Of a DNA stretch of 64,000 nucleotides, positions 9,840 to 47,055 are shown piece by piece; positions within the stretch are counted from its first letter, which is position 1; every line of letters starts with the position of its first letter. The stretch lies in the NCBI GenBank assembly GCA_021018995.1, contig CM037593.1:17264088-17328087 (forward strand), written 5' to 3'. Below the pieces are notes generated by a model. The model ran no database searches. It worked only from the letters and a program-made list of their open reading frames with translations, and was not told where the DNA came from. Both the position numbers and the translations under genes were made by a program. Source of the DNA: Chloranthus sessilifolius (lineage: Eukaryota; Streptophyta; Magnoliopsida; Chloranthales; Chloranthaceae).

Positions 9840-12336
9840 ATCTGGTTAGGAAGGAGTAATTCCTTGGAATGTCGGCACCCGCAGGCGATTAAAAGACCTC
9901 AAAAGATGTTATAAACCTCTTTTCATTGGTATTCTAGAGCCTATGGGTAGGAGTTCTACTGGACTCTTTTCATTGGTATTCTAGAGCCTATGGCTAGGAG
10001 TTCTACTGGACTACATCTGCTGCATTATCGAACATGGGATCTATCTGGTTACTATGGTCTGGGAATCCAGACTCTATTTCTGTTATTCTTAGGCGCGTCG
10101 TCAATTTTTATTATGCCTAATTGAAGTTATGGGATCCAAAATTAAGTATTTGCTGGTTAGAGAGAACTGAACTATGGTCATCATTATCTGGACTATGTTA
10201 CCCGTCCGATATATTTCTCATTGCGGGCGATTTTAATGCGATTATTGAGGCTTCTGAAAAGTTAGGAGGCGATCCTCCTGATATCCACTCGATAAGAGAT
10301 TTTGGTGATTTTTAGGAATCAAATGCACTTGTTGATGTGGGCTTCTCCTCAAACAAGTTCACTTGGTGCAATAATCGACATGGGGATAGAAGAATTTGGG
10401 GCAGACTTGGCAGGGTGCTTTTTTCTAGTTCTTGGTTCTCAATATTCCCAAATCCGGAAATTATCCATAGTCCAAGACTATCCTCGGACCACTGCCCAGT
10501 AATCATTCGAATTGGGAATCAGGAAAATAAACCTATCCCATTCAGATTCTTCGAGGCATGGATCGGAAAACCTGGCTTTCATGATATAGTGCTCAGATCT
10601 TGGGGTGAATTTGCATTAGGTTCGCCATTGTATGGAGTCACAGTAAAGCTTAAAAGGCTTAAATCCACTCTTAAGTTATGGAATTCTACAAATTTAAATA
10701 ATATCAAAACTCAAATTGAAGAATCAGAAAAGAGGGTGGAAGAACTGGAACGTTACATTATTCAAAATGGTTGGGACTCGAGCACTAATCTAAGATGCAC
10801 GGAAGAAAAGACAAAATATCATAATCTCTTGCGAGAAGAAGAGTCAATGTGGCACCAGAAACAAGTGGTTGGATAAGGGAGGTCAGAACACAGCCCTTTT
10901 TCGGTCTTCAACTAGGATCAAAATTATTCGAAAAAGCATATCGAGAGTCAAAAATAAAGAGGGGCAGTGGTTTGAGAATGGGAAGGATATTGGTGCTGCT
11001 GCAATGGGGGAGTTCCAAGAACTCGTCAAATCTCAAGTAGCCCATTATGAAAAATCTCCGATTCTGGACCGCATCCCAATGCTTGTGACAGCAAGCGAAA
11101 ATGCCTTTATGGCAGCTATTCCCTCTATGGAGGAGGTACATGCTGCAGTGCTATATATTAATGCTTATAGTGCCTCGGACCCAGAAGAGTTCTCGGGCTC
11201 CTTTTACATATTAGCCTGGCAAATCATCAAGTTTGACATATTCTACGCGGTCAAGAACTTTTTCATTGGAGGTGTTATCCCTAAATCTGTAAACTCGAAC
11301 TTTATAGTTTTGATTCAAAAAACTGACAATCCTACTAATTTTGCAAATTTCAGGCCAATTAGTTTATGCAACTTCCTGCACAAAATTCTGTCTAAAATTC
11401 TTGCGAACAGGTTGAGCAGGATTTTGCCTCGGCTAATTTCTAAAGAACAAGGTGCTTTTGTTGAAAGAAGAAGCATATATGATAACATAGCGTTTTGCCG
11501 ATGAAATCATCAATTATATAGACATGAAGTCTCACTCGGGTAACATTGCTATGAAAATTGATATGGTGAAGGCATATGACAAAATGGAATGGGCGTTTAT
11601 ATTGGTTGTATTAACTAAATTCGGGTTTGATAGCCAAGTAATTAAGTTAATCAATGGCTTCATATCATCTTGCTCGTTCTCTTTGATTATTAATGGCACA
11701 TCTGGAGGTTACTTCCAAAGTTCTAAAGGTTTGCGTCAAGGCGACCCTTTGTCTCCTGCATTGTTTATATTGGCGGAAAAAGTGCTTAGCAGAGGCATAA
11801 AAGACATGTATGACGAGAGTTTAATCAGCAGGTTCTGGTCTCCTCGGGATTGCTCATGCCTCAGCCATATTTTATTTGCAGTTGATCTATTAGTGTTCTC
11901 TAATGCTTCAAAAAAATCACTTTTGAATCTTAAAGATTTCCTGTCTAAATATGAGAAAGCCTCGGGACAATTAGTGAAATTTCCAAGAGGCTCCTTTATC
12001 TCTGATTGGTAGGATAAAGAATATTACGGGGTTTAATCAGGGGTGTCTTCCAGCAAATTATCTAGGAGTTCCTCTATTCAAAGGTCGATTAACTCGTAAT
12101 GACTGTTGGGTACTGGTACAAAAAATTTCTAATCGAATTTCAGGTTGGAAATCAAGGAACCTATCAAAAGGGGGGAGAATTACTCTAATCAGGCACGTCC
12201 TCACTACTATGCTCATATGCTTGATATCAATGCTTCCTTTCCCAAAATATATCACTGAAGAATGGAAAGATGCTTTGCTAAGTTCTTTTGGGGATCGAGC
12301 TAAGTTCTTTTGGGGATCGAGCGATAATAAAAATAA
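9840..12336 (+). mobile_element. RNase H-type LINE, 5' half (endonuclease and RT), split by the MULE
   Basis: Plus-strand reading shows the apurinic-type endonuclease: a decayed N-terminus (WNVG..RRRLKDLKR near 9864), IAGDFNAI near 10225 and SSDHCPVII near 10480. After a charged linker (10700-11000) comes the reverse transcriptase: NFRPISLCN (about 11344), KIDMVKAYDKMEW (11554), GLRQGDPLSP (11730) and the catalytic box at 11878. That box reads FAVDLLVF instead of the usual ADD, so one catalytic Asp is lost. Frame changes and stops are also present, near 10313, 11504 and 12010. The reading reaches a GSSDNKNK motif exactly where the MULE begins and resumes with AHWLSWDE at 26973 and 32944. A short duplication precedes the break (12282-12320). 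A dead L1-clade plant LINE. Confidence 0.88.
9917..10010 (+). repeat. 47-bp tandem duplication inside the LINE endonuclease
   Basis: Two nearly identical units (9917-9963, 9964-10010), each containing CATTGGTATTCTAGAGCC. It disrupts the endonuclease N-terminus. Confidence 0.8.
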
Positions 12337-13242
12337 GGGCACTTTAGAAAAGCAACCATGAAAAAGAAACGTTTTAGCCTATTATCCAGGCTGCAAACGT
12401 TTCAGAGGATCAGGCATATGGTGTTTTCCGAACTTCAGATTTTCGTGAGATTGCTAAAATAGTCACAAGTGCGACGAATTAAATCCATACAAGTTTACTA
12501 AAATGCCCTTCTATAAAGGGTAGTTTAGAAAGCAGGCGGTGGGTTTTTTTCTAGATTTTCCTGCGCAGCTCCCTTCTCTACCTTGGGATGGTTTCTGAAG
12601 AACTTTGTGTTCGTGGTTATTGAAGAAGAAGACGGTTCATTCTTCTGAGTTTAGCGTGTTTAGACCCGTCTCCAAGGGTTGGTTTCGAAGCTCTCTTCTC
12701 CTGCGCAGCTCCCTTCTGAGTTTAGCGTGCTTATTGAAGAAGAAGAAGGTCCATTCTTCGTGGTTATTGAAGAAGAAGAAGGTCCATTCTTCGGAACTTC
12801 TAATTCTCTACCTAGGGTTGGTTTAGATCTGTCTCCGAGGTTCTCGTTCAACAACTGCGCAGCTTCTTCTCCATCATCTATGCATTCCATTATTAAGCAG
12901 GTATCTATATTTGATTTGGGTTTTATAAGATGATTTGGTTTTGGGTATTTTTAAAATTTTTTTAATTGTATCAAAGGGCTTGCTGTTTCTTTTCCTTGGT
13001 TTGTTCTTGATTTGGGTTTTGTTTTGGCTATATGGGCTGGTTAGGGTGATTTTAATGGGATTTTAAGAGATGGGTTTTCATCTCCGTCAGATTTTAACCG
13101 TATCAAAGGGATTTTAATTTTAATGATGTGAGATAAAAAGTCTAATTTTAATGGTATATGATCATTTAAACAAGATTTTGGTGTTTAAATGTCAGTCAGG
13201 AGCCATTATCCCATTGCCAAAATACTCAATACTGAATTGTTT
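12337..13242 (+). repeat. MULE 5' terminal inverted repeat
   Basis: About 906 bp. It matches the reverse complement of the 3' side once the two insertions there are set aside: AACCATGAAAAAGAAACG, GGATCAGGCATATG and CATACAAGTTTACTAAAATG all recur inverted. It ends at GAATTGTTT (13234-13242). It includes a 33-bp minisatellite at 12731-12792 and a possible splice donor (AAGCAG/GTATCT) near 12900, so it may hold a promoter and first exon. Confidence 0.85.
12731..12792 (+). repeat. 33-bp minisatellite in the MULE inverted repeat
   Basis: Two units containing TTATTGAAGAAGAAGAAGG followed by TCCATTCTTC. Similar units recur on the minus strand near 26450-26510 in the opposite inverted repeat. Open frames across it come from the GAAGAA codons. 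Confidence 0.75.
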
Positions 13243-14898
13243 GATAGTGATACTCTTTTTTATGTGCTCTATCAGATATTTACATCATGATGCATCTAGA
13301 AATGGACCCTGGTACACCCATAGCACATTGATTTTGGTCTTATGTTCTGTTTGAAAGGGATTTGGTTTTCTTTCAAATCTAAAGAACCATAAAGAGTTCT
13401 TTTGGCCCATTGATTGTGGACATCAACTTTCCTAAATGGCAGTGATTCAAAGTGGCTCTTATCATTCTCCGCTGCTGTATAAAAGAAAATCCCCAACGCC
13501 AAGATGGGAATGTGACTTTTGCACTTTTAAATGGTTGTTGTATATGGGAAGAACCTGTAAGCACTCACAATAATTTTTGTGTCTCTATTTAAGCATTCTC
13601 AACTATGGGAAGAACCTATAAGCGTTCTCTGTATATGGGAAGAACCTATAAGCATGCTCAACTACTGCATAAAACTACACCATCTAGTATAACTATAGTT
13701 GTTTTAAATGGCCATTCTGATGCACCTTCTAGTATAACAGTAGCTACATAAAACTACACCATCTAGTATCAGGTGGTGTTATTCCAATATGTTGTTGTAA
13801 AAATTTAAAATCAGTATAACATAAGCTGCATAAAATTACACCATCTGAGTATAATAGCAGCAGCTAGTATAACAACAGCAGCATAAAACTACACCATCTA
13901 GTATAACAGAAGCTATTTCAATATGTTGTTGTATTCTAGTATAATCAGTATAACAGCAGCTGCATAAGACTACACCATTTAGTATAACAGCAGTAGCTAG
14001 TATAACAGCTGCAGCTAGTATAACAACAGCTACTAGTATACACCATCTAGTATAAGAGAAGCTAGGATAACAATCGCTTCTAGCATACACCATCTAGTAT
14101 GATAGCAGCTTCTACAAATTTCTGAAAACTACAGTAATATCATAATTTCTTGTTCCATCTAGTATAACAGCAGCTGTTCCAAAGTACAGTAATCTCATAA
14201 TTTGCAATTCAATTATAATCAAAAACAATGATGAGGTCTTCCAAAATTAATCATTTTCTAAAAACCAGAGACCTGATCTGATGCAAAGAATTTGACAATT
14301 TTGAAAATTAAGGACCTCAATTCTGCGTACAACAAACTTAGATGGCCTACTACCAAGTGATTGTTGACATGAGCTGTTATAAATAGCTTTGATATCATCC
14401 TAATCTGTGTATAACAGCCAACTAAGTCCCTTTTTAAAAAAACTGCACCCATAGCACATGCAGTTTTTTTTCCTTAGTTTGTTCTTGATTTGGTTTTAGG
14501 TATTTTTCAATTTTTTCTGGGTTACAAAAGATGATTTGGGTATTTTTCAACTTTTTTTAATCGTATCAAAGGGCTTGCTGTTTCTTTTCCTTGGTTTGTT
14601 CTTGATTTGGTTTTTGTTTTGGCTATATGTGATGGTTGGGGTGATTTTAATCAGATTTTAATAGATGAGTTTTCATCTCCCTCAGATTTTAACCGTATCA
14701 AAGGGATTTTAATTTTAATGATGTGAGATAAAAAGTCTAATTTTAATGGTATATGATCATTTAAATATGATTTTGGTGTTTAAATGTCAGTCAGGAGCCA
14801 TTATCCCATTGCCAAAATACTCAATACTGAATTGTTTGGTGGTGATACTCTTTTTTATGTGCTCAATCAGATATCTATATCATGATGCATCTAGAAAC
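12927..14898 (+). repeat. Direct repeats bounding a 1.2 kb segment inside the MULE
   Basis: The block 12927-13302 (AAGATGATTTGG ... GATGCATCTAGAAA) recurs as 14528-14898 in the same orientation with a small amount of divergence. The left copy is mostly MULE inverted repeat, so the inner part of the terminal repeat was duplicated rightwards. The segment between holds the CATCTAGTATAACAGC array. Confidence 0.8.
13538..14190 (+). repeat. Degenerate interspersed array, core CATCTAGTATAACAGCAGC
   Basis: From about 13670 the words ACACCATCTAGTATAACA and GCAGCTGCATAAAACTAC recur roughly ten times with variable spacing and partial units (CTAGTATAACAGCAGC). Just left of it ATGGGAAGAACCTATAAGC occurs three times (13546, 13604, 13635). 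No coding potential; the minus-strand frame at 13836-14093 merely reads through the repeats. Confidence 0.75.
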
Positions 14899-16096
14899 CA
14901 ATAGTAAGTATGTTAAAAGCTCTATGAGCTTTTCTATTCTCCATGTAAATATAGCTTGCATAAATTTTTGAGTTGTAGTATATAACTGCCCAATCATTGT
15001 TTGTCTAATCTCCATAAGCTCCCACTCATTTCACTTTTAATAAAATATATAATCACTATTAAATATGTGCTAATCCTCTCTTCAAAGGATGCGTACTCTG
15101 TTTTCCCAACACGTGTAATTCTCTCGTTACAAATGTTTGTTCAATTATTTAGAGAATGCATCACTTGTAACACACATTTTCAAAAGATATATGTGGTGGT
15201 TATAATCATAAATTTTGGTGGATCACCAACATTGGAGATGAATGCTGCCCAAATATAATGCATACCCTGTTTTTCTAACTTGCCAAAATTTGATGCTATA
15301 ACCAATTACGAATCTTTCTCAATTCATTTTATGAATGAGTTTTTTAGCCTTTTTAAAATGAATCAATAATTTGTTGAAGTTTAGTCCCACATTGCGTAAA
15401 ATATAGCTTTGTCTCTCCCCTTATAAATGGTCGTTGGGCCCCTCCACTCATTGCCAATTAATTTTGAGTTCGATGCACATATTTATTAGAATCACCATGT
15501 TGATTGATTCTTATTTGCAAAGGATAAATCATAGCTGTTGTTATTTTTTCAATTACTTAATTTATATTCACACCGGGACTACCTAATATACTAGGCTTTT
15601 GCTAACTAATGCTAAGTACCTCATGTTTGTGTTAAAAACTAAATTACTTCCAATGAAACTACCAATTTATAGGATTGATGTGGAGACAGTGGCTTCGTAA
15701 GATTATCAAGCTTGTAAAGATCCTTTTATCCATCATTCCTGTCAAAAGTTGACATCTACTAGATGTCAGGGCCCTTGAATAATGTAAAGTCTAAGGTAAA
15801 GCAAATGGGTATGGCCAGCCATGCTCATCATTCCTTTACTCAAAGTATGAGGTTGGGGTATATATAGCTAGCTGGGCTTCGGATTTATTTAAAAGTCCTG
15901 ATAACGTCATAAGATTTATAGAGCTTATGAGCAGCTTTTCTAACCCATCGAATCTTCTCAAATGCTGGCTTTGCCAGATTTGTTGGGGTCCTCACATCTG
16001 TGAGAGACAGCTTTTGACATGTCTGACCGGATATAAGGTTCCTAAACTTTTGCTTTTGACATGATTAATTGGGTATGAAATTCTGGGAAATTTAAG
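14899..16096. other. MULE interior, nothing identified
   Basis: No recognised gene. The 85-codon plus-strand frame at 15001 has no recognisable motif. A GTCCCACATTG..TTATAAATGG word pair near 15385-15430 resembles promoter-like pieces of small plant elements, but no ends were found. Confidence 0.35.
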
Positions 16097-16700
16097 TTTT
16101 TTTTTTTTTTTTTTTTTATAATCTATTAAATTTATCAATTAAAATCTACTCACAATCATCATACAATCAAAATAAGTACGCAAGATATTTTTAACGTGAA
16201 AAATCCGTCACAGGCAAAAACCACGGGATCTATCTCAGATCCAAAAAGAAATCCACTATGAACAAAAAACTTTACAGTGCTTCTTTGGAATGATATGCCC
16301 TAGCACTCCAATCACCAAACATGACAGCCTTTCTCCATCATACTATCCATAGTGAACATTTCCATCAACCTACGTTCCTTGCGAAGGTTCACTTGTCTCA
16401 CACAAGTCTTACACTCTCAAACATGAAATCATAACGACCCATAAACATCAAAGAGATTAGAGAATGAAATCAAAAGATGTAAAGTAATCTCAATGACAAA
16501 ATTTTGGACAAACAAAAATTTTAGAAATAAGATTTTCGGATCAGTTATGAAACTGCCCGAACTTCCTAAAATTTATATGTTTTAGGATCACGGACGTCCG
16601 TGAATCACTCACGGTCGTCCGTGACAACAGACGTCCGTGAGTGTACTACGGACGATCGTGGGTTCAAAAAATGACAAACCAATTTGTCAAACTTAATTAC
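16097..16700. repeat. Unclassified element fragment: poly-T(21), then CACGGACGTCCGTG palindromes
   Basis: A 21-base T run (16097-16117) is followed by TACGCAAGATATTTTTAACGTG and CCACGGGATCTATCTC, words frequent in plant retroelement ends. At 16595-16665 come four variants of TCACGGACGTCCGTGA, the first being a perfect 14-bp palindrome (CACGGACGTCCGTG). Probably part of an old retroelement end; no boundaries or coding parts seen. Confidence 0.4.
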
Positions 16701-19218
16701 TTGGCAAAACTATTTCCTAAAGAAGCAATACTATTTTTTGAGTCATGATGGTGACAAAAAGTCTTACAGGGTAAATTGCTTTGATCCCTACAAATTGCCC
16801 TTGGATGTCCAGCACAACTTCTCAAACCTGACTGCTCTACATCCACTTTATTTTCTTGGGAAAAAGTTGGGGATTTCATGCATGGTTAAAATCAATCTCA
16901 GATCGGGTTCCACTGCTGGGCAGAACCGTTTCTGGTGTCATATAGGAAATACGGCCAGTGTTTTGAAAATACTGGCTGGTATAATTGCTCCAAATCCCTA
17001 AAAGGGATCAAACCGGGTGGTGTTAAGTGTTAACACTTTGGCATTTATACCGGCCGGTATTTACGAGCCGGTATTCTTTGGGGTATTTTGAACCACAATT
17101 TCACCTCTCTCACCTAGCAGCATTGCTAGCATGAGTTGGCAGTCTTGGTGTACTTGGAGGATCTTCTTAAACAAAGAAAGGAAATTGGTGGATTTTGTAC
17201 ATAAATGTTAATATCACGTTAGCTTTTAACTTGGTATCCACATGTAGATGTAGATGGTATAGGGTAATCACTCATTCACTTTCAAGTGTGAACAGGTCAA
17301 ACCTTGAGAAGTGGACAACTATTTTATGACTTATGAGCATGCAAATCACTAAAAGTACATATTTGATTGACTCATTTTCACTTGAGAGTTGAGACTTGAG
17401 AGTGAACTGTTCGGTTGTACCAGCCCAGGCTCGAGTTTCTCAAGCTTAGGTGGCTTATTTTAATGCTTTGTTTCATCAATGAACTTTATTTATGTGCATT
17501 CTCATTGATCTAGACCACACTATAGTCCCACAGATTAAAAGATTTATGATTCTAATCATTTGTCAAAATTTTGGATAGCCAACTTAATTTGAGATGTGTA
17601 TCATGTTAGAGAACACAATAATTGTATTTTTATATAATTAAATGTCAGATTAAAGATATGAACTATTAAATAGAGAAACTAGGATAGATGAACTTCAGTG
17701 ATTTGGCTTGCCAATCCCCATAAAATTGAAAACAAACATGGTTTTACATCTTAGAAAGATTCCAGGTAGCTCTCCCATATGTATAATATTAAAATCTGTA
17801 CAATAACTATAAAAAGGCAATGTATATATTTATAATTGCTTTAACCTCACCCCCACCAATATTCGCACACATCTTAACCGAGATGTAGATCTCAGTTATA
17901 TTAAGAACAGATTTTCTCAAAAAAAATAAATTTAAAAGATGTTTATATAGCGAACCAATCATTATGAGGAGTATGATTACCGTCCAGAGTCTCTGGTTTA
18001 ATCGCATGCACTTGGTTGTGTGAACAACTTGGGCATCTTTTATTTCGAAGGCGTTGACGGCATCCACATGATTTGTTGCATACTAGCCATATAAGACTAT
18101 GAGAGACGAAAGCAATTTTGTTTTTTCCAAGGAAGGAATGAATTAAATGAGTTATAAAGATACATACATACAATATATTCCTTTCCTTCTGCTTCGTGAA
18201 TTACAACTTTCCCTTTGAAAAACAAATTGTAATAAGCGTGCATGTTCTCAACTGTTTGATCGTAGGAGATACGATTCAGGACCAAACTCTCTTAAGTAGT
18301 TGATCCCTCTTCCGCTAAAATATCTAACATTGTTTTTTTTGTTTGCCCTGGTGGCGTCCACCATCTGAATATTGAAAAAGGTTTCGGAGGCGTTCTATTG
18401 TCAACAAAGTTGTAGGGATAAAGTGAACAATGAGTGAAGAAGTATGCCTCACTTGAATTTCTACCCACTCCTCTTTAAATAGGCGCCTCTCGGAGGGGCC
18501 ACAATCAAGCAATTGATGGGGCTCTTTTTTAGGGCTCCTGCGTTTAAGAAAAAAATTTATACTAACACCTTGTGATGACCGCAACAAGAAGACTATTAAA
18601 TAAGAAATAACAGTGAGTTACTGAAATATGTTGATATATTCTCTAGCATGTAGGATTAATAAGATATCACTTGCATCATAAGATTATCAAGCTTGTGATG
18701 GTTCTTTACCTGTCAGCCTTGTCAAAATACGATTTTTTTATATTTTTTTTATATTTTTTTAGATATCGGGTCGAGTTGAATGTGATTATGGGCTTTTCTT
18801 TGATGCCTAAAACTTGGTAAGAGGTTGGAATTTAGGTTACCGGGCAGGGTTAGGTCTCTAGATTTTTGGAAACATGAATGAGGGAATTTACGTTTAAAAG
18901 TTTGTGTTCAAATATTTAAAATGTGGGGAACTTGCTACTAACTGATGTGGGTGCAACAAAAAAGCTCGTGTCAGTAACACTTCTCAAGAATAAACAAGGT
19001 AGCATTCCTTAACAAATGGTATCATAGAGGAGCTGCTGCTTCTTGCATTAGGTACACAAATTAATGAAAAATCCATTCTTCCTAGAACATTTTCCACTAA
19101 CATTTTGTCTCCAACCACACACCTAATCTTTAAGTGTCATTTATTCGGACAATTCATATACATCCTTAGTCGGAACTTGGAAGATTCATGTACCTATTGA
19201 CCATCAAATACCAAAATA
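16701..19218. other. MULE interior, unidentified short frames
   Basis: No gene named. A plus-strand frame at 16684-17001 (105 codons) and minus-strand frames at 18324-18587 and 18097-18285 are open but match nothing I recognise. The latter pair, with a GT at 18171-18172 after GKEYIV, could be exons of a captured gene on the minus strand. GC-rich CCGGCCGGTA words occur near 17045-17080. Confidence 0.3.
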
Positions 19219-19226
19219 CTTAAATG

Positions 19227-19342
19227 TAGGGGTGGCAATGGGCTGGGTTTGGATTTTTATCATTTTTTTAATAAGGCTAGGCCCAAGCCCGGCCCGTTTA
19301 TAGTATAATTTGAGGCCCGAGCCCGGCCAATTTTCAGCCCTA
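19227..19342. mobile_element. hAT-type MITE, 116 bp
   Basis: Begins TAGGGGTGGCAATGGGC and ends CAGCCCTA, so the terminal TAGGG/CCCTA is inverted. An exact 8-bp target duplication CTTAAATG lies at 19219-19226 and 19343-19350, the size made by hAT transposases. The interior is a run of GGCCC/GCCCGG words. Nested inside the larger MULE. Confidence 0.85.
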
Positions 19343-19349
19343 CTTAAAT

Positions 19350-19803
19350 GGATACCTCTATTAGCGCCCACGGAATCTCTGAAAGCACCTTCATTGGAAA
19401 CCCCTTCAAAACAATCGATTGCTTTGAATCCTATGATGGAGATCGTGTTTTTCTCCGATCTTTCACACAATGGATTATGAGATCTTGCTGCACCTATCAT
19501 ATGGTTAGTTTTTCGTTCCGACGATTATTTATTATTATATGCGTTACATATCCCTAAAAAATACCCCTCAAGTCATATGACACGTTTCATGCTCAAACGC
19601 GAGTTTATGGCCTTCTTTTTAGAATTCGTGACATGTGTAATCATAAATTGACCATCCGATAGATGTGCCATGATCTGAAGATCTATTTTTTGATAATATC
19701 TTGAAGAAATACTACCCCGATCTATTGATTAGATGCAATCAATTGTTTTAATAGGTATGATATGTGGGTGTTACAATAAAGTCGTGAGTGCAATTAGAGG
19801 CAC
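19350..19803. mobile_element. Palindromic MITE family, copy inside the MULE
   Basis: Left end GATACCTCTATTAGCGCCCACGG, right end GTGCAATTAGAGGCACC. The core GATCTTTCACACAATGGATTATGAGATCTT and its inverse partners are recognisable though diverged. The hAT MITE sits at its left edge. Confidence 0.55.
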
Positions 19804-20125
19804 CATTACAAATTCATTGTAAGGATGCAATTAGAGTGTGGGCTAAGATAATCGGGTGTTCCAATTAAATGCTTTGAATCTAACAATAGAGGTACCTTAT
19901 CACATCGATATGTGAGTGTCTCTTCAAAGGTTATTACATGTTAGATCAAATCATAAATTGGGCAATGTTGTGCTTCAATAGTACATCACTGTATTATTTA
20001 TAGAGGGCTTTGCAACAAAAGAAAATCAAGCAAAGTTGTGTGTTTTGTTGTTAAGCTCAGTTCTTGCAATAAATTTGTAACCGTAATTTAGTTGAAAATC
20101 CTTCAATTTTTTCGTAATCGATCGG

Positions 20126-20744
20126 ATGGCTGGTGTTGATCCACATAATGAGGCACGCATGACTATCATGGTAGACATTTTGAGGGAGATGAGAGCCGTA
20201 AGATTTGAGATCTTAGTTCTTAATCGGCTTTCTCTTGGGTAGACGATCGAAAATGTTCACTCGCTTTCGTGTCTAGCTTATCAGGGTCAAGCAGCATTGA
20301 CGGTGAATGTGAGGAACAACATGACAGTCAGTACGTATTGTACAAATAAATGGTAGTTCAACATTTTAACTTGTTAGAGATTTTACTATGACGGCGTTCA
20401 CATGATTGTGCTAACTGTTTTGTAAGTCCAGCGGAACCTTCGACCGCGGAGGACTATCGTATCGGCCAAGCTGAAAACACATCGTTCATGTTGCGATTTG
20501 ATTATAATGATTAGATTGTAAGTGTAAAAATAATAACTTTTTATTAGGTTTTACATATGTTTATTTGTAAATGCAACTCCTAATCGTATTATTGATGGTT
20601 GCAGGCAATGACCAGTGTGGTTTCCCTTGGCAGAGAACTTATGTCATACAGGGCAGATGATGAGCACGTTAACGATAATAATGAAAACGCTAAGGAAAAC
20701 GATGATGAAGAGAATGACGCCGATAGCGATGACGGCGACGACTA
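20126..20744 (+). pseudogene. Spliced gene remnant with acidic tail (unknown)
   Basis: An ATG at 20126 opens MAGVDPHNEARMTIMVDIL, a helical, charged N-terminus, which hits an in-frame TAG after about 37 codons (20238-20240). Further exon-like pieces follow: PAEPST.EDY.IGQAENTS (about 20433-20519), then a putative intron (GTAAGTG ... GGTTGCAG), then a last exon from 20605 ending in a tail of Asp, Glu and Asn (NDDEENDADSDDGDD, stop at 20742-20744). The second and third pieces are duplicated at 28050-28366, where splice sites look cleaner. The N-terminus recalls ALP1/HARBI1-type transposase-derived proteins, but that is a guess. Function unknown; broken in both copies. Confidence 0.4.
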
Positions 20745-21837
20745 GGGATATGCCCACATCTTAATCTGTTTTCCCTCTTTCATTTTTTCTAATGCAACAT
20801 GTATTTTTATTTTTTTTTATAACAATGCAACGTGTATTTTTTATTGACACTTTATTAGAACTGGGTTAACAACAGTAGCCATCCACTTTTCCCTCACTAA
20901 TTAAGTATTGAGTAACCGTCCACTTTACACCATTCCAAAGTTAGATCATTTCCTCTATCCCTCTCTCTCTCTCTCTCTCTCTCTCCCTGTTGTTTTTTTT
21001 TTTTCTGTAGATTAGGGACTGTAATAGGTCTGGATGCCCAGATCTATAGATCTATCCATGAAAAAGAAGGTTGCTTGCATGAATTGATGATTAGGTTATT
21101 ATCCCCCCTTCTTTTCATTTTTAATCTAGTGTGATTGAACGGTGGTTTGGAAAAAATATGAAAATAGTGGGGGTGTGGAGATTCCTTCTGGATGCCCAGA
21201 TCTATTCCAAATGCTTTCTTCTTCACCTTCTTCTTTCGTTTTTAAAGAAGGAAAAATACATGAGTTTCTACAATTTTATAAACTTAAGAAAGATTCTAAC
21301 TCTATCTTGGACAAGAGAGAAGAGGAGAGAGAGGTTCATAAAATAATAATCAAGCATATTTAATCATGGAATAGCTGGAAACAGAGGGAGAAGACTTTTA
21401 GTCGTGAGTACCGACAGAGTTTGCTACTTTAGCCCGACCACTAAGGTTGGTGGGGCTGTCTCCATTGTAGCCTTGTACGTGGGTCTCATGACCCGTCAAA
21501 TTGAGAGTTATAAGGGACTTATCACCCATCTAATTACTCATGACACACGTCGCTTGTAAGAATTCCCGAAACGAGATGTCCCTTCTTATAGATTTTTTCT
21601 TTGTTTCCCCTGGTGATAGTTCGCCACATCTTTATCAATAGTGAGTGTCCCGTCAGAATGAAAAATGACCGATACTATATTAGTTTCCATCCTTTATATT
21701 GTACCTACATATTATATGTCACAAATAAAGAAGCTCATATACCAAATATAAAGATAAGTGGGGTTACTCATTAGCTATGCCCTAACAGAAGTTAACTACT
21801 TTAGTGTCGTGCAATTTACCAAACATATTTTCTTTTC
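20745..21837. other. Duplicated MULE interior with CT microsatellite
   Basis: No recognised gene. (CT)12 lies at 20961-20984. A 73-codon plus-strand frame at 21142-21363 recurs at 28790-29011 with few differences, but whole units are similar, so this is not evidence of coding. Confidence 0.45.
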
Positions 21838-22130
21838 ATCTAACGGATATCATTTTACGTCCAAATCATTGACACAATATTTCTTGAGATTATGCTCTTG
21901 TGATGATTTTGGTCAAATTTTGTTTTCCACGTGACACACAACATAAAAAGAGATCCAAGAATCATACTTGACGTACGCCACAATAAGTATGATTCTTTTG
22001 GGATATGTGCCATGTGGAATCAATGTTTCATCGTCTCATTGTAAAACATAATCTCTAGATCAATTGTGTCGAACATTGGGACCAAAAATGATCTCCATCG
22101 AATAATTTAATGGCCTACTACTCTGTTCAT
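21838..22130. mobile_element. Palindromic MITE family, copy in unit 1
   Basis: Core words ACACAATATTTCTTGAGATTATG and ATGTGCCATGTGGAATCAA with inverted partners; outer ends eroded. Present at the same place in unit 2, so it predates the duplication. Confidence 0.5.
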
Positions 22131-23710
22131 GATATCTAATTTCTAGAATATTTCATAAGTATCTAATTCTTATCTATTAATAACTGAGTTTCTCCTAAAT
22201 TTATATGGAGACCCTTCTATTAGGAGCTCTCTTGTTGTTTCTTCTCGCTTCAAAGATTTCTTTATCTTGGAAAATGTGAGACACGGGATTAAAATTAGAA
22301 GATTAGCGATAAAAAATGGTTGAATGAATGTGAGGAAAAAGACTCCAAAAGGTTGAGTGAATGTACTAACTTATTCATTTCCTTTGAAGTTTTCCTACAC
22401 CGATTATAAGCAATAAAACCAAATGAACATTACATAAAGAAAATCAAACATACCGAAGAGCATCAAGCAAACATTTCAAACATAACAAAACATGAAGCAT
22501 ACCAAGAACTAATCTGAAGACCGAGTCAAAGGACTAAAATTAAATAAAGAAATCAGAAGACTAGCCTAAAAAACCCCTAATCATATAACAGAAACCATCA
22601 CAAAAAGTCAAAACAAAGAAACCAAAGTAGACCATCGAAATAGAACATGAATAAACCATTCAAATAGAAACATAGGAAATATATAAAAATATAAATAACC
22701 TCCTGTCATAACTCAATGGTCAAATTTGACTTAATAATTCTCGAAAGCCAAAAACCCCCATCTTTAAAATCCCATTACAAATCACGATTGATCATCCCAG
22801 AAAGGCAAAATAAATAAAAAAAATTCAAATATAAAAAAATTAAAAAAAAATAAACACCAAACCCATTGAACCTGAATGCAAAAGTCCCAAAACAAATCTA
22901 TTACTTTTTTTTACACCGAACTCTTCGCCAAATAGAGAGAGAGTATCCAGGGAACCAAGAATCTGTAATCCAAAATGGAAAAATCTAATAACAAGGGACA
23001 CGAGAAAATGACCTCTTCTATTGTCGGAATTAACAAGACATGTCTCCGAGAAGACACGTCTGTCCTTTGGACCCTTCTGCAAACCCATCATTAAAAAAAT
23101 ATAATAAAACAAAAGCCTAAAAAAAATCACAAAAGATCCACCCACAACAAGCCCTGAATTTCAACAAAAAAAGACTTAAAACTCAAAATAGCTAACCAAA
23201 GAAGAAAAATGAAGACAAGGTACATGAGCACACATTAATCCATATAGTAGTCCACGAGAAATGGCAATTTGGAGACTGAAAATTGCATTGATAAAACAAT
23301 ACAACGTATCTAAGCACCTCCTCTACTGAAAACCCATTTAGTACAACCATTCATTTACATGAATTTGATTGGATTTTGAGGACTCTTTGCAACTTTTGGG
23401 TTGTGTGCAACCGCAAGAATATCTTCCATGTGGGCAACATGGATCAATGTACAATTGTACATTGATGATGTCATGTGTGGTATATAATATAGATGACCCA
23501 AACATCATCCTCAGTGCTCTACCCTGACCACAAAATTATTACCAGCCTTTTGTTTTGTGGGCTTCAGAAATTGCAGTTGTTTCCTCATCTTCCTTGACTA
23601 CTTTTACAAGAGTCTTACCCAGGTTGTAATTCAAATGGACAGTATAGCTTCAGACAACAATAGTAGGTAACCATGATACAACATGAAATAGTTCAATAGT
23701 ATTTTGGTAA
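22131..23710. other. AT-rich duplicated interior of the MULE
   Basis: Mostly A-rich plus strand. Open frames here are short and unrecognised. A possible small exon on the minus strand near 23560-23640 (reading GKTLVKVVKEDEETTAISEA) is too short to name; the same sequence appears in unit 2. Confidence 0.35.
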
Positions 23711-23967
23711 AAACAATTCAGTATTGAGTATTTTGGCAATGGGATAATGGCTCCTGACTGACATTTAAACACCAAAATCGTGTTTAAATGATTATATACC
23801 ATTAAAATTAGACTTTTTGATCTCACATCATTAAAATTAAAATCCCTTTGATATGGTTAAAATCTAAGGGAGATGAAAGCCCATCTCTTAAAATCCCATT
23901 AAAATCACCCTAACCATCCCATATAGCCAAAACAAAAACCAAATCAAGACAAACCAAGGAAAAGAAA

Positions 23968-24506
23968 GGGCACTTTAGAAAAACAAAGACACTAAAGCTT
24001 TTCACTCCTCAGCCAGCAAGAAAACAGATGCACTAACGCGCAACGGCTAGCGTGCTTGCCCTTGCTTCTTGTTGGCTATGCTACTAGCGCATCCATCTAA
24101 CTTTTCTTTCAACTGCCTATACTTGGCTGGCTGCTATTTCAAATTCTGATTGAAATCTTGAAATCAATAGCTCGAATCCTAACGTAGGTAAGATGAGCAT
24201 CGACTGCTGTAGGGGAATCCACCTGCGATCTCGGATCATATGTTGCTGGAGCGAGTTGGGTAACTTTGTTCCTGATGGCTTACTCCCCATCAAAGAAAGC
24301 AGATTATTCAGGAATCACAAAATTGAAAGGGAATGTGATATGTTTCTTCCAGGTCACCCACTGAACACTCGTTTCGGGCAGAGTTCATTTTAATTCCATA
24401 AAAAATCGACGGCATAGCCTTTAATTTAATTTGTATCTGTTTTGTTACATTTGTGGCAGTTGCAAGATGGTTTCTTCTTTCTTGAAATCTTTTAGTGTAT
24501 CCCTTT
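23968..24506. mobile_element. Unclassified 539-bp insertion in the MULE 3' inverted repeat
   Basis: Present in both duplicated units (also 31683-32260) but absent from the 5' inverted repeat, where the uninterrupted site reads TTTCTTTTCC (about 12986-12995). It is flanked by AGAAA on both sides (23963-23967 and 24507-24511), consistent with a 5-bp target duplication. It starts GGGCACTTTAG and ends GTGTATCCCTTT. It contains an ATG frame at 24193-24393 with NFVPDGLLPIKES and ERECDMFL, kept open in both copies. I do not recognise the product; possibly a captured gene fragment. Confidence 0.6.
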
Positions 24507-24711
24507 AGAAACAGCAAGCCCTTTGATACGATTAAAATTTTTTGAAAAATACCCAAAACCAAATCATCTTATAAAACCCAGATCAAATATAGATACCTGC
24601 CGAATAATGGAATCCGTAGATGATGGAGAAGAAGTTGCGCAATTGTTGAACAAGAACCTTGGAGACAGATCTAAACCAACCCTAGGTAGAGAATTAGAAA
24701 TTTGGAACAAT

Positions 24712-26438
24712 TGATGAGTAGCGAAATATGAGGATATTTCGTCCCTAAATACCTACATTTGCTACCCGATGAAGGCTATCTGATGAGAATTACTAGATTT
24801 GAAGTGTTTCAGGTAAATATAATCCAAGTGCAGAAAACAGCCCAAGAATTCCGAAAATAATGTCAAAACACTGCAACTTTGGGTCATCGGGAACTTGGTG
24901 CTACTTGCAGATAAATTTGGACCTTCAAGACGTCTGATTCAGGAAATTACTAAAACACAAAAGTTGTAGAGCTCGTCGTTAGCTTTTCAACGCCGTAAGA
25001 ATCTCCTCAATCCGAGTTTTAGACAGAAAGTTATGACAAAAATATCGAGGCAGTGTCTGATGCAAAGTTTGGCGGGAGTTCACGGAAATAGCTTTTAGAC
25101 CTCAATCGATTGAGAATTAGGTCTCAATCGATTGACAGGAGAGAACAACTTGTTCCAACTTAAGAGTCAATCGATTGAGATTTAAATCTCAATCGATTGA
25201 GGTATTAGGGATTAGGGTTGGCCGACCTTATAAAAAGGACGCTACGAGTTGTGAAAAAGGAGAATTTTGGTTTTAAGGAATTTTAGTTTAGAAGAGTTTT
25301 ATTTTTTTAGAATAGAGGTAGAGATAGAGAGATTTTTTATTATTCTTTTCCCTTTTGAGAGCTTTGTTCCTTTAATTTTCAGTATTCATTCCTTCAGTTT
25401 ATTATTTTTGTTCAAGTGATTTCTGCATTAATTTCGTTTCTGAAGATCATCGTACTTTTGGATCAAAGTAATTTCTATTGAAGTTTGAGGTATTTTTAAT
25501 TCATTAAATTAATGTTATTTTCCCTTCCTTATTTATTTATGTCATTTAATTACAACATGTGTGGCTAAATTCATAGGGATGTACTTTTAATAATATAAAT
25601 CTAGGATTAAAATATGAGATCTTATTTCATGGTTGTTGTGTTATCATGAACGGATGAAATCCTTGCCACTAACTGGGATCGCGTGTGCCGAGCCATGCCC
25701 GGGATATCAGATCTGTGACGGTAATTCTATTTCAATCATTGTTATATGATCTCTTTGCTTTCATCGTGTGGATTTAATTACGATTATGATCCGGGATCGA
25801 GTGTGCCGAGCCATGCCCTGGATCTTGGATCTGTAATAGTAAGTTTATCTTAATTACTCCCTAATCTGAAATCAAGTGTGCCGAGCCATGCCCTTAATTT
25901 CAGATCTATGGTGGTATTCTTATTAGAATTTTTACCCACTTTGGGGATGATTTTTATTTGAACCTGAGATCATGTGAGCCGAGCCATGCCCTTGATCCCA
26001 GATCTATATATGAAAATTATCTCTGAAGTTAAGTCCTGATTGCAGGGATGCAACGTGGAACCTATTAGGGTTTTGACCATTTATCTTCCATAAAAGATGT
26101 TAGTTTTGAATGGTATATCTTATAATTTAATCCGTAGATTTATATTACGGGAAGAACATACCAAAGATGGGAGGATTTAGTATCTTCATCTTTTCCTTTA
26201 TTTTTGAATCATTAATTAAATTTTAGTTTGTAGTCAGTAGTTATCATCTCATCAAACCACCTAAATCATAATATTGGTAGGGTACTATTAAATCTTAGTG
26301 AATTTCTTGAATTACTGTCTTGTTTTTTTAGATCTTTCAAAATAGTCCTCGTGGCAACGATCTCGTACCCCGCACCCACTATATACAATCTGATTCGTGC
26401 GCTTGCGAATAAAACATTACAATAAAAATATCACATCA
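24712..26438. mobile_element. Solo LTR B (LTR retrotransposon fossil), in unit 1 only
   Basis: A 1727-bp block TGATGAGTAG...TCACATCA, flanked by identical 5-bp target duplications ACAAT (24707-24711 and 26439-26443). Unit 2 has the unoccupied site (GGAACAATGGACC at 32459-32471), so insertion followed the tandem duplication. Same family as solo LTR A. It contains a TATA-like CTTATAAAAAGG near 25228, several TCAATCGATTGA palindromes (25110-25202), and a minisatellite with core GTGTGCCGAGCCATGCCC at 25683, 25801, 25876 and (variant) 25973. It looks whole as an LTR, with no internal region. Young relative to its surroundings. Confidence 0.9.
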
Positions 26439-26972
26439 ACAATGGACCTTCTTCTTCTTCAATAACCACGAAGAATGGACCTTCTTCTTCTTCAATAACC
26501 ACGCTAAACTCAGAAGGGAGCTGCACAAGAGAAGGGAGCTTCTAAACCAACCTTTGGAGACAGATCTAAACCAACCTCTGAACAGATCTAAAAAAAACCT
26601 TGTAGCCAGATCTAAACACGCTAAACTCAGAAGAATGGACCATCTTCTTCTTCAATAACGACCGTCTTCTTCTTCAATAACCACGAACACAAAGTTCTTC
26701 AGAAACCATCCCAAGGCAGAGAAGGAGGGAGCTTCACAGGAAAATCTAGGAAAAAAATCGACTATATGCTTCTAAACTACCCTTTACAGAAGGGCATTTT
26801 AGTAAACTTGTATGGATTTAATTCGTTGCACATGTGACTATTTTAGCAATCTCACAAAAATCTGAAGTTCGGAAAACAGCATATGCCTGATCCTCTAAAA
26901 TGTTTGCAGCCTGGATAACAGGCTAAAACGTTTCTTTTTCATGGTTGTTTTTCAAATTTTCCCTAAAAATAA

Positions 26973-27926
26973 AGCCCATTGGTTAAGTTGGGATGAAATA
27001 GCAAAGCCCAAACTCGAAGGTGGATTGGGTATAAGGAAACTTGCAGACATTCAAAAATCTGGTATGGTGAAGTTAGTTTGGAAGTTGCAGACAGAAAATT
27101 CACTATGGTCGAAGCTTTTCTATGAGAAGTATTTGCACTCCAACTGCGCTTACAATGCTCCAAAATCATCAGTGGATTCAAAATTTTGGAAAGCGGTGAG
27201 ACCATGGCTAAAGCCAACCATAGATAATATGGTTTGGAAAGTGAATCATGGAGAACACACGATGCTACTACAACATAACTGGACTGGTCATGACCCACTT
27301 ATAAACAAGTTCCACTTACCAGTCAAACATGGTATGTTGGTATGTTTTTGATAAATTAGCTAATGAATTAGCCAATATACAAGTTCCCCACCATGTTTCT
27401 GAAACAATAATATGGAAGGGCTCTAAATCAGGATCTTTTTCATTTGCTTCAGCTTGGGATATGGTTAGAGTGAAGTCAATGGAAAACAAAAAAGTGGAAT
27501 TGGGTTTGGAAGAGTAATTGTCCCACAAGAATCCAAAGTTTTACATGGAAATTCTTAAGGTCGGCTATACACGGTCGACTCTGTAGTAAGAACATGAAAG
27601 ATTCCTATAGTTCCCCAATGCCTTCTTTGCAAGAGGGAGGAGGAAACCATTCATCATTTATTTTTGGACTGCACTTTTGCTAAACGTTGTTGGGGCTTTC
27701 TAGCGGTTAAGTTTGATGTTACAATGATAGGTTGGCATTACCTCCATCGATTGGCTAAATGGTTTCAAAGTATAGTGGCTACTCAAATAAATATGATTCG
27801 AAGAATGATCCCATGGCTCCTAATATGAGAAATCTGGCTTCTAAGAAACAAAATAAGGCTTGGGCTTAACAGGTGGCACTATCAAGAAGTTACTCAAAAG
27901 GTTCTAAGGTGGGTATTTGAAATACA
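26973..27926 (+). mobile_element. LINE 3' half, unit 1 copy (ends at the duplication junction)
   Basis: Continues the LINE of 9840-12336 after the MULE: AHWLSWDEIAKPKLEGGLGI, then a typical region downstream of RT, then a zf-RVT finger (CKREEETIHHLFLDC near 27634-27675) and W.LI-type tail. Frame changes and a stop (TGA in place of TGG, near 27826) make it non-functional. Cut at 27926 by the start of unit 2. Confidence 0.85.
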
Positions 27927-28049
27927 ATGAATGCGAGGAACATCATGACAGTCAGTACGTATCGTACAAATAAATGGTCGTTCAACCTTTTAACTTGTTA
28001 GAGATTTTACCATGACGGCGTTCACATGATTGTGCTAACTGTTTTGTAG

Positions 28050-28366
28050 GTCCGGCGGAACCTTCGACCATGGAGGATTATCATATCGGCCAAGCTGAAA
28101 ACACATCGTTCGTGTTGCGATTCGATTATAGTGATTGGATTGTAAGCGTGCAAATAATCATTTTTTATTAGGTTTTAAATATATTTATTTGTAAATGCAA
28201 CTCCTGATCGTATTATTGATGGTTGCAGGCAATGACCGGTATGGTGATTGGCAGAGAACTTATGTCACACAGGGCAGATGATGAGCACGTTAACAATAAT
28301 AACGGAGACACCGAGGAAAACGATGATGAAGAGAATGACGCCGGTAGCGATGACGACGACGACTAG
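28050..28366 (+). pseudogene. Acidic-tail gene remnant, unit 2 copy (last two exons)
   Basis: Exon-like PAEPSTMEDYHIGQAENTS.VLRFDYSDWI (about 28051-28142, quoted loosely) is preceded by TTTTGTAG/GTCCGG and followed by GTAAGC. The last exon after GGTTGCAG (28228) reads AMTGMVIGRELMSHRADDE and ends NDDEENDAGSDDDDD with a stop at 28364-28366. The first exon is missing because the duplication began within it. Unknown function. Confidence 0.4.
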
Positions 28367-29487
28367 GGATACACCCACATCTTAATCCGTTTTCCCTAAT
28401 TTTTTTTTCTAATGCAACATGTATTTTATTTTTTTTTATAACAATGCAACGTGTATTTTTGATTGACACTTTATTAGAACCGGGTTAACAATAGTAGCCG
28501 TCCACTTTTCCCTCACTAATTAAGTATTTAGTAGTCGTCCACTTTACACCATTTCAAAGCTGGCTCATTTCCTCTGTCCCCCTCTCTCTCTCTCTCTCCC
28601 ACTTGTTTATTTTTTTTCCTGTAGATTACGGACTGTAATAGGTCTGGATGCCCAGATCTATTGATCTCCGGCTCTGAAAATCGCAAAAAACGCCCAGATC
28701 TGTCCATGAAAAAGAAGGTTGCTTGCATGAATTGATGATTAGGTTATTCTTCGCCCTTCTTTTCATTTTTAATTCGGTGTGATTGAACGGTGGTTTGGAA
28801 AAAATATGGAAATAGTGTAGCTGTGGAGATTCCTTCTGGATGCCTAGATCTATTCCAAATGCTTCCTTCTTCACCTTCTTCTTTCGTTTTTAAAGAAGGA
28901 AAAATACATGAGTTTCTACAATTTTATAAACTTAAGAAAGATTCTAACTCTATCTTGGACAAGAGAGAAGAGGAGAGAGAGGTTCATAAAATAATAATCA
29001 AGCATATTTAATCATGGAATAGCTGGAAACAAAGGGAGAAGATTTTTAGTCGTTAGTACCGATAGGGTTTGCTACTTTAGCCCGACCACTAAGGTTGGTG
29101 GGGCTGTCTCCATTGTAGCCTTGTACGTGGGTCTCATGACCCATCAAATTGAGAGTTATAAGGGACTTATCGCCCATCTAATTGCTCATGACACACGTCG
29201 CTTGTAAGAATTTCCGAAACGAGATGTCCCTTCTTATAGATTTTTTTCTTTGTTTCCCCTCGTGATAGTTTGCCACATTTTGATCAATAGTGGGTGTCCC
29301 GTCATAATGAAAAATGACCGATACTATATCAGTTTCCATCATTTATATTGTACCTACATATTACATGTTACAAATAAAGAAGCTCATATACCAAATATAA
29401 AGATAAGCGAGGTTACTCATTAGCTATGCCCTAACAGAAGTTAACTACTTTAGTACCGTGCAATTTACCAAACATTTTTTCTTTTCA

Positions 29488-29780
29488 TCTAACGGATATC
29501 ATTTTACTTTCAAATCATCGACACAATATTTCTTGAGATTATGCTCTTGTGATGGTTTTGGTCAGATTTTGTTTTCCACGTGACACAACATGAAAAGAGA
29601 TCCAAGAATCATACTTGACGTACGCCACAATAAGTATAATTCTTTTGGGATATGTGCAATGTGGAATCAATGTTTCATCATCTTATTGTAATACATAATC
29701 TCTAGATCAATTGTTTCGAATATTTGGACTAAAAACGATCTCCATCGAATAATTTAATGGCCTACTACTCTATTCATGAT
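29488..29780. mobile_element. Palindromic MITE family, copy in unit 2
   Basis: Duplicate of the copy at 21838-22130, with the same eroded ends. Confidence 0.5.
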
Positions 29781-31425
29781 ATCTAATTTCTAAAATATTT
29801 CATAAGTATCTAATTCTCATCTATTAATAGTTGAGTTTCTCCTAAATTTATATAGAGACCCTTCTATTAGGAGTTCTCTTGTTGTTTCTTCTCGCTTCAA
29901 AGATTTCTTTATTTTTGAAAATGTGAGACACGGGATTAAAATTAGAAGACTAACCATAAAAAATGGTTGAATGAATGTGAGTTAAAAAGACTCCAAAAGG
30001 GTGAATGAATTCTAACTTATTCATTTCCTTTGAAGTTTTCCTACACCGATTGTAAGCAATAAAACCAAAGGAACATCAAATAAAAAAAATCAAACATACC
30101 GAAGAGCATCAAGCAAACAATTCAAACATAACAAAACATGAAATATACCAAGAATTAATCTGAAGACTGAGTCAAAGGACTAAAATTAAATAAAGAAATC
30201 AGACGACTAGTTTAAAAACCCCCCAATCATATAACAGAAACCATCACAAAAAGCCAAAATAAAGAAACCGAAGTAGACCAAAAAATATATATACAATCAA
30301 AAGGAACCCTAAATAAACATTTCATACAGAAATCCTAAGACACACGAGTAACCATCAAAATAGAACATGAATAAACCTTTCAAATAGAAACATAGGAAAT
30401 ATATAAATATAAAGAACCTACTATCATAACTCAATTGTCAAATTCGACTTAATAATTCTCGAAAGCCAAAAACTCCCATCTTTAAAATCTCATTATAAAT
30501 CACGATTGATCATCCCAGAAAGGCAAAATTTAAAAAAAAAATCAAATATAAAAAATAAAATAAATAAATAAACACCAAACCCATTGAAACAGAATGCAAA
30601 AGTCCCAAAACAAATCTATCACTTTGTTTTACACCGAGCCCTTTCGCCAAATAGAGAGAGAGTATCCAGGAAACCAAGAACCTGTAATCCAAAATGGCAA
30701 AATCTAATAACAAGGGACATGAGAAAAAGACCTCTTCTATCGTCGGAATTAACAAGACATGTCTCCAAGAAGACACCTCTGTCCTTTGGACCCTTTTGCA
30801 AACCCATCATTAAAAAAATATAATAAAACAAAAGAAAAAAAAATCACAAAAGATCCACCCACAACAAGCCCTGCATTTCAATAAAAAAAGACTTAAAACT
30901 CAAAATAGCTAACCAAAGAAGAAAAAGGAAGACAAGGTACATGAGCACACATTAATCCATATAGGTCCACGAGAAATGGCAATTTGGAGACTGAAAATTG
31001 CATTGATAAAACAATACAACCTATCTAAGCACCTCCTCTACTGAAAATCCATTTAGTACAACCCTTCATTTACATGAATTTGATTGGATTTTGAGGACTC
31101 TTTGCAACTTTTGGGTTGTGTGCAACCGCAAGAATATCTTCCATGTGGGCAACATGGATCAATGTACAATTGTACATTGATGATGTCATGTGTGGTATAT
31201 AATATAGATGACCCAAACGTCATCCTCAGTGCTCTACCCTGACCACAAGATTATTACAAGCCTTCTGTTATATGGGCTTCAGAAATTGCAGTTGTTTCCT
31301 CATCTTCCTCGACTAATTTTACAGGAGTCTTACCCAGGTTGTAATTCAAATGGACAGTATAGCTTCAGACAACAATAGTAGGTAACCATGATACAGCATG
31401 AAACAGTTCATTAGTATTTTGGTAA

Positions 31426-32934
31426 AAACAATTCAGTATTGAGTATTTTGGCAATGGGATAATGGCTTCTGACTGACATTTAAACACCAAAATCGTGTTT
31501 AAATGATCATATACCATTAAAATTAGACTTTTGATCTCACATCATTAAAATTAAAATCCCTTTGATACAGTTAAAATCTGAGGGAGATGAAAACCCATCT
31601 CTTAAAATCCCATTAAAATCACCCTAACCATCCCATATAAGCAAAACAAAAACCAAATCAAGAACAAACCAAGGAAAAGAAAGGGCACTTTAGAAAAACA
31701 AAGATACTAAATCTTCGCACTCTTCAGCCAGCAAGAAAACGGATGCACTAACGCGCAACTGCTTTTGTGCTAGCGTGCTAGCCCTTGCTTGTTGTTGGCT
31801 ATGCTACTAGCACGTCCATCTAACTTTTCTTTCAACCGCCTATATTTGGTTGGCTGCTATTTCAAATTCTGATTGAAATCTTGAAATCAATAGCTCGAAT
31901 CCTAACGTAGGTAAGATGAGCACCGCCCGCTATAGGGGAATCCACCCGCGATCTCGGATCATATGTTACTGGAGCGAGTTGGGTAACTTTGTTCCTGATG
32001 GCTTACTCCCCATCAAAGAAAGCAGTTTGTGCAAGAATCACCAAATTGAAAGGGAATGTGATATGTTTCTTCGAGGTCACCCATTGAACACTCGTTTCGG
32101 GCAGAGTTCATTTTAATTCCATAAAAAATCGATGGCATAACCTTTAATTTAATTTGTATCTGTTTTGTTACTTTTGTGGCAGTTGCAAGATGGTTTCTTC
32201 TTTCTTGAAATCTTTTACATCTAAGAACAGAAATTTGACAAAATTTTAGTGTATCCCTTTAGAAACAGCAAGCCCTTTGATACGATTAAAAAAAATTGAA
32301 AAATACCCAAAACCAAATCATCTTATAAAACCTAGATCAAATATAGATACCTGCTGAATAATGGAATGCGTAGATGATGGAGAAGAAGTTGCGCAGTTGT
32401 TGAACAAGAACCTTGGAGACAGATCTAAACCAACCCTAGGTAGAGAATTAGAAGTTTGGAACAATGGACCTTATTCTTCTTCAATAACCACGCTAAACTC
32501 AGAAGGGAGCTGCGCAGGAGAAGGGAGCTTCTAAACCAACCTTTGGAGACAGATCTAAACCAACCTCTGAACAGATCTAAAAAAAACCTTGTAGCCAGAT
32601 CTAAACACGCTAAACTCAGAAGAATGGACCATCTTCTTCTTCAATAACGGCCGTCTTCTTCTTCAATAACCACGAACACAAAGTTCTTCAGAAACCATCC
32701 CAAGGCAGAGAAGGAGGGAGCTTCGCAGGAAAATCTAGGAAAAAAATCGACTGTATGCTTCTAAACTACCCTTTACAGAAGGGCATTTTAGTAAACTTGT
32801 ATGGATTTAATTCATCGCACATGTGACTATTTTAGCAATCTCACGAAAATCTGGATTTAATTCCTCTAAAACGTTTGCAGCCTGGATAACAGGCTAAAAC
32901 GTTTCTTTTTCATGGTTGTTTTTCAAATTTTCCC
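31426..32934 (-). repeat. MULE 3' terminal inverted repeat, unit 2 copy
   Basis: Second copy of the MULE right end, containing the 5-bp-TSD module (31683-32260) but not the solo LTR. It ends TTTTCCC at 32934, followed by TAAAAATAA (32935-32943) and the LINE. A 36-codon stretch around 32361-32460 (GEEVAQLLNKNLGDRSKPT) also occurs at 24607 and, on the minus strand, near 12890, because it lies in the inverted repeat. Confidence 0.85.
31683..32260. mobile_element. Unclassified insertion module, unit 2 copy
   Basis: Copy of 23968-24506 produced by the tandem duplication. It is longer by about 35 bp, mainly at 32215-32247, which unit 1 lacks. The open frame at 31916-32116 is retained. Confidence 0.6.
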
Positions 32935-32943
32935 TAAAAATAA

Positions 32944-46943: not shown

Positions 46944-47055
46944 TGCTTCATAATTGGAATGATGACTTCATGGACAGCTGGTGAGTATATTGGCCGACAA
47001 TAATTAGTTGGATAACAGCTGTTTTATTGACTGATTTGTCTTTTGTGGCCGAACT

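Follow-up and report, generated by a model that had tools for sequence, protein, structure and literature searches.

We found that positions 12337-26963 of the window, the 64,000-nucleotide stretch of DNA analysed here and located on contig C10 of the 2.17-Gb genome that was searched, are very probably a non-autonomous long-arm Mutator-like element (MULE), an internal-deletion derivative that inserted in a LINE and whose right half was later duplicated. This reading builds on direct observation of the ends, duplication, empty sites, arms, transposase-bearing relatives and deletion break. It agrees with the original prediction of a non-autonomous MULE inside a LINE, which is supported by the target duplication, the termini, the arms and the transposase domains of the relatives. 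The element fits a known, published kind of plant MULE, and we read the elements of the window as plant-like.

The inserted element is 14,627 bp long, starts with GGGCACTTTAG, ends with ...AAATTTTCCC and is flanked on either side by an exact TAAAAATAA; both the exact 9-bp target duplication and the GGG...CCC ends had been predicted and were confirmed at these positions. Considering the base composition of the window, the chance of a 9-bp match at fixed ends is about 8e-6. The insertion and its host comprise the following features.

12328-12336, plus strand: target duplication, left copy, TAAAAATAA (exact match).
26964-26972, plus strand: target duplication, right copy, TAAAAATAA (exact match).
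10316-12336, plus strand: host LINE, upstream part with reverse transcriptase (frame and Pfam).
26973-27926, plus strand: host LINE, downstream part, cut by a duplication join (frame and alignment to LINE copies).

Both flanks belong to one LINE reading frame, which runs from ...GSSDNKNK on the left directly to AHWLSWDE... on the right, as had been read previously (NKNK to AHWLSW). A reverse transcriptase domain (PF00078, E 6.3e-16) lies upstream of the insertion at 11491-12012, and the zf-RVT downstream part of the LINE was found past the last of the duplicated copies described below (copy C), at 33568-33933 (E 2.5e-8). When the joined flanks (294 bp) were used to query the genome, 20 matches were obtained, six of which spanned the whole query, and five of these six entered the empty-site alignment. 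Results showed that the LINE is contiguous at the site, without the insertion, in all five aligned copies; four have a single TAAAAATAA, and in the fifth (L044) 6 bp are deleted at the site. LINE copies interrupted at the junction would have spoken against the predicted insertion, and the five aligned copies are contiguous there. Close to the insertion site, 14 bp away, a 22-bp tandem duplication occupies 12277-12322; it is absent in 5/5 aligned LINE copies. The window contained no Rfam match above the gathering scores.

We then compared the two arms, which are laid out as follows.

12337-13242, plus strand: terminal inverted repeat of the left end, 906 bp, starting with GGGCACTTTAG (self-comparison of arms).
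23711-26963, minus strand: right terminal inverted repeat, interrupted, ends ...TTTTCCC (segments 26438-26963, 24507-24714 and 23711-23967).

From the tip inwards, 12337-12791 matches 26438-26963 with 91.6% identity (455 aligned positions, 71 gap columns; maximum of 46% in 20 shuffling trials with this first left-arm piece), 12783-12990 matches 24507-24714 with 90.9% identity, and 12986-13242 matches 23711-23967 with 96.9% identity. The right arm is stretched across 23711-26963 because two insertions sit in it. Therefore, the predicted inverted repeats of about 0.9 kb hold for the left arm, while the right arm carries this sequence split in pieces. Long inverted repeats are thus present here, and their GGG...CCC tips are like those of the Abermu elements of barley.

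The original prediction had proposed a search for other copies flanked by 9-bp duplications, and named copies whose ends fall elsewhere as evidence against it. Searching the genome with the left arm gave at least 67 matches, with the best 40 of 3767 candidates scored. In the relatives that were fetched, the 16 matched termini fall at the same tip, with GGG/CCC in 14 and a one-base sequence difference in two. Both termini were matched in four relatives, of which three carry an exact 9-bp duplication and one a 10-bp repeat with one mismatch; for the remaining relatives, the fetched stretch contained one end only.

Relative C3: 2,470 bp, target duplication TAAAAAATA, exact.
Relative C11a: 10,178 bp, target duplication TAAAAATTA, exact.
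Relative C11b: 10,104 bp, target duplication TAGTTTTAA, exact.
Relative C16: 32,306 bp, 10-bp flanking repeat with one mismatch.

MULEs are described in the extracts of PMC6446971 as having long arms and target duplications of 8-11 bp. The usual length is 9 bp; the exact TAAAAATAA and the repeats of its relatives (three exact, 9/10 positions in C16) fall in this range. C2:43358934 was dropped as a complete relative, as no far terminus was matched and its 9-bp flank did not recur exactly within the stretch that was fetched. On the C6 contig, two left termini in the same orientation, at 22435750 and 22438746 (L023:501 and L023:3497), lie 3.0 kb apart with separate flanks; this pair may be either a nested insertion or a tandem-arm MULE.

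We asked whether relatives with matching ends encode a MURA-type transposase, as the original prediction had suggested looking for, and two of them indeed carry such domains. The frames of the C5 relative contain DBD_Tnp_Mut (PF03108, E 4.1e-11) and MULE (PF10551, E 9.3e-13) domains by Pfam, and the C16 relative, whose matches to the C5 frames are at 70-90%, has a frame with a SWIM domain (PF04434, E 1.4e-7). The matched stretch in C16 contains two stops, and the matched transposase in C5 lies in separate frames, readable as introns or frameshifts. The orientation of the C5 frames with respect to the matched end is unlike that in C16, which indicates that subfamilies exist; these observations on C5 and C16 weigh against our main reading.

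To place the transposases relative to the ends, we merged 33 of the 67 left-arm matches into 28 end-bearing loci, leaving aside those of the window array and repeated matches of the same loci. A generic MULE profile search of the genome, which listed 150 transposases, was replaced by a search with the family's own transposase piece, from which 68 of 150 matches with at least 75% identity were kept. Considering the loci and transposases among the matches listed, a family transposase lies within 20 kb of 8 of the 28 end-bearing loci, with 0.035 expected; a MURA/MULE transposase is therefore present in the family through the C5 and C16 frames and these eight loci. In the other 20 loci the family transposase was not found within 20 kb, among the best candidates scored, which counts against our preferred explanation.

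The element itself keeps a trace of the gene, at the features below.

21501-22911, minus strand: DNA that adjoins the transposase gene in relatives, with an abrupt break at 21501 (homologues).
21488-21693, minus strand: frame-shifted relic of an ORF upstream of the transposase domains (matches the ORF that lies ahead of the C5 and C16 transposase frames).
29151-29339, minus strand: the same relic in copy C.

Among the 50 matches listed for 21501-22634, 35 homologues lie outside the window array; 30 of these are within 6 kb of a family transposase, with 0.013 expected, and for 28 the distance is 2.6-3.5 kb. As 31 of the 35 start exactly at 21501, where the element departs from the gene, we read this position as a deletion break. 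The relic ORF, which gave no Pfam match above cut-off, is probably the first exon of the transposase gene. The window had no match to the three later transposase pieces or to the DUF1985 piece. The element thus encodes no transposase of its own beyond this relic of the upstream ORF: it had been called non-autonomous and without a recognised transposase, and the first part stands, while the second was incomplete since the relic remains. DUF1985 is found in relatives instead, as a Pfam frame in C4 (PF09331, E 1.6e-14, L025:3873-4535) and by tblastn in C16 (18302-18964) and C7 (L027:5094-5754).

The rest of the interior is also shared with the family.

14498-15671, plus strand: family interior, 93% identical to the C4 relative (L025:1101-2275).
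15922-19791, plus strand: interior mostly common to C4:8904486-8920556, in smaller parts to C6:18709928-18711270, a solo LTR excepted.
19792-21183, plus strand: interior common to C4 (19589-21183, 84%) and, as far as 21053, to the C16 element (78%).

The interior order is the same as in C4 and partly as in C16. Two family ends, C4:8877953 and C6:18734693, rank among the best arm matches and, judging from the order of the parts, these ends and the interior blocks on the same contigs may represent single large elements. A Pack-MULE, with an interior captured from host genes, would be suggested by the large size of the interior, whose longest stop-to-stop frames lying wholly within it have about 108 codons; we consider it very unlikely, since eight interior frames gave no Pfam match above the curated cut-off (one was sub-threshold, TetR_C_10, E 0.024), and much of 15922-22911 is common to MULE relatives. 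The internal-deletion derivative of a MULE remains our reading of the interior.

Several insertions and one duplication enlarge the element (copies A, B and C of its right end are described further below).

24712-26438, plus strand: solo LTR in the right arm (TGATG...CATCA), with 5-bp duplication ACAAT at 24707-24711 and 26439-26443 (ends, duplication, family copies).
16076-16768, plus strand: solo LTR in the interior (TG...CA), 693 bp, with 5-bp duplication GGGTA at 16071-16075 and 16769-16773 (ends, duplication).
23968-24506, no strand assigned: 539-bp insertion in the right arm, opening with the terminus of the family, GGGCACTTTAGAAAAACAA, and present in copy C as well (sequence comparison).
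13303-14497, no strand assigned: 1195-bp block, of which 13304-14447 is a dispersed repeat.
14498-14897, plus strand: 0.4-kb direct duplicate (91%) of 12899-13302, the inner left arm and beyond (self-comparison).

The solo LTR of the right arm is present in copy B, with its 3' part in copy A, and absent from copy C; 25 other full-length matches were listed, including four pairs 7-10 kb apart. An insertion at about 24715-26437 had at first been taken as carrying a 9-bp duplication, and this was rejected once the ends and the 5-bp ACAAT identified the solo LTR. The interior solo LTR is missing from the C4 relative and has family copies elsewhere. The 539-bp insertion opens with the outermost 19 bases of this terminus and ends with ...GTGTATCCC; a 5-bp AGAAA repeat was seen, and a 9-bp duplication was not. 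Without the solo LTRs, the 539-bp insertion, the 1.2-kb block and the 0.4-kb duplicate, the element measures about 10,063 bp, near the 10.1-10.2 kb of C11a and C11b, when lengths and arms are compared. Its size had thus been overstated, because about 4.6 kb belongs to other insertions and a duplication; the description as unusually large is not supported, and MULEs of 17.7 kb have been published, as extracts of PMC2528002 report.

Three right junctions, a feature that the original prediction had not described, share one LINE flank: at window positions 26963 and 32934, and at L009:8744, about 11.3 kb upstream of the window, where the right end and LINE flank form copy A.

20304-27926, plus strand: copy B of the tandem duplication, MULE right half and LINE flank.
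27928-33896, plus strand: copy C, the second unit of the tandem array, which lacks the 1.7-kb solo LTR; the LINE runs on beyond.
32935-32943, plus strand: TAAAAATAA at the duplicated right junction (exact).

The right end at 32934 was rejected as a second element, as its LINE flank is part of the duplication. In a shared 1.1-kb piece, copies A and B diverge by 1.7%, and copy C by 2.8% from each of them, and the closeness of A and B agrees with the presence of the 1.7-kb solo LTR in these two only. B and C diverge unevenly: the MULE interior differs by 6.6 and 5.1%, the arm and LINE part by 2.7%. This is not simply explained by one duplication and counts against a simple history. Copy A turns B-like inside the LTR, the preceding piece being just 78% like the LTR of B. 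We also noticed that the points where copies A and B exit the LINE are no more than 6 bp apart (window 27920-27926; L009 near 9521), which likewise does not fit a simple history. That the three right junctions arose from transposition itself, alternative or one-ended and acting on mixed arms, would be consistent with all three copies, within about 45 kb, having one right terminus and one LINE flank in common, and MULEs with extra arms are known from extracts of PMC3310237; yet the joins lie at 20304/27926, in interior and LINE, and for copy A inside the LTR and in the LINE, none of them at the MULE terminus, so that aberrant transposition is not needed and ordinary duplication is preferred, the transpositional origin being highly improbable. 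Two unrelated insertions or a mis-assembly mimicking one element can hardly be credited, even in a region rich in repeats and with a tandem duplication, considering that both ends, the target duplication and the contiguous LINE all agree and that the interior is collinear with C4 and partly with C16.

Taken as an internal-deletion derivative, the element may have the following history. An ancestor would have carried a MURA-type transposase gene beside one arm, reading inward, as in the C16 relative; the gene body would have been lost through an internal deletion, with its break at 21501, both arms being retained. From what is generally known of MULEs, the family transposase presumably binds the arms, and the shortened element would have been mobilised in trans by a transposase that a related copy supplied, the deletion probably preceding the movement, into an AT-rich target in the LINE, where insertion would have produced the 9-bp duplication. 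The element also contains the two solo LTRs, the 539-bp insertion, the 1.2-kb block and the duplicated piece of arm. After the LINE insertion, the right half and LINE flank were duplicated in tandem and a B-like right end was copied upstream; in the simplest order of events, the MULE entered the LINE, the tandem duplication followed, an LTR element then inserted in B, and last the end of B was copied to A.

The insertion site had been called self-dating, a claim that we could not sustain. Insertion does not homogenise the arms of a DNA transposon, for which reason dating from arm divergence was rejected, and a duplication of 9 bp provides no clock. As judged from the copies themselves, the insertion must be older than the divergence of 2.8% between the duplicates, which gives a minimum relative age only.

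Among known systems, likenesses and differences were taken from extracts of the cited papers. The grapevine MULE families are described with lengths up to 17.7 kb, arms up to 710 bp and duplications that, when present, are of 9 nt (PMC2528002). In particular, the Mutavine elements (TIR-MULE, MuDR-like) share 9-bp duplications, long arms (710 bp in Mutavine-7), large size (17.7 kb in Mutavine-1) and many deleted copies (PMC2528002), whereas the arm here is of 906 bp, a comparison made with the published description. Barley Abermu resembles the element by its GGG...CCC ends and 9-bp duplications, and the likely autonomous Abermu of 8,176 bp has deletion derivatives; the Abermu arms are, in contrast, of 138-145 bp (PMC9168764). 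Nested insertions are reported in over a third of transposase-bearing maize and rice MULEs (PMC3903597). MULEs with multiple or tandem TIRs have also been described and are similar in having extra arm sequence, here at 14498-14837 and in the two C6 left ends (PMC3310237). Unlike them, the extra right ends in this region carry LINE flank and thus arose by duplication after insertion.

DUF1985 is marked as a VANC domain in PMC5735166, and Ulp1-bearing VANDALs are reviewed in PMC13317346. A DUF1985 frame in relatives of the window element recalls the Arabidopsis VANDAL and KAONASHI MULEs, but the window element itself had no DUF1985 match, and its arms are long, where VANDAL arms are described as absent or short and degenerate (PMC5735166, PMC13317346, PMC6446971). 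We regard it as rather improbable that a long-arm MULE lineage with a DUF1985 gene like that of the VANC anti-silencing proteins runs its own anti-silencing, from which deleted passengers would profit in trans.

The element settles no open question. It offers a checkable case of how a large non-autonomous MULE originates, with its transposase gene lost, its movement provided by relatives and its length increased by nested insertions; a single genome suffices to read the empty site, the family of the parent and the succession of later events. Elsewhere in the window, we observed a large inverted repeat formed by 45485-51373 and 53149-58902, about 1.8 kb apart, with 4.9-kb arms that are 95% identical (46484-51373 versus 58064-53149) and shorter extensions of 88-92%.
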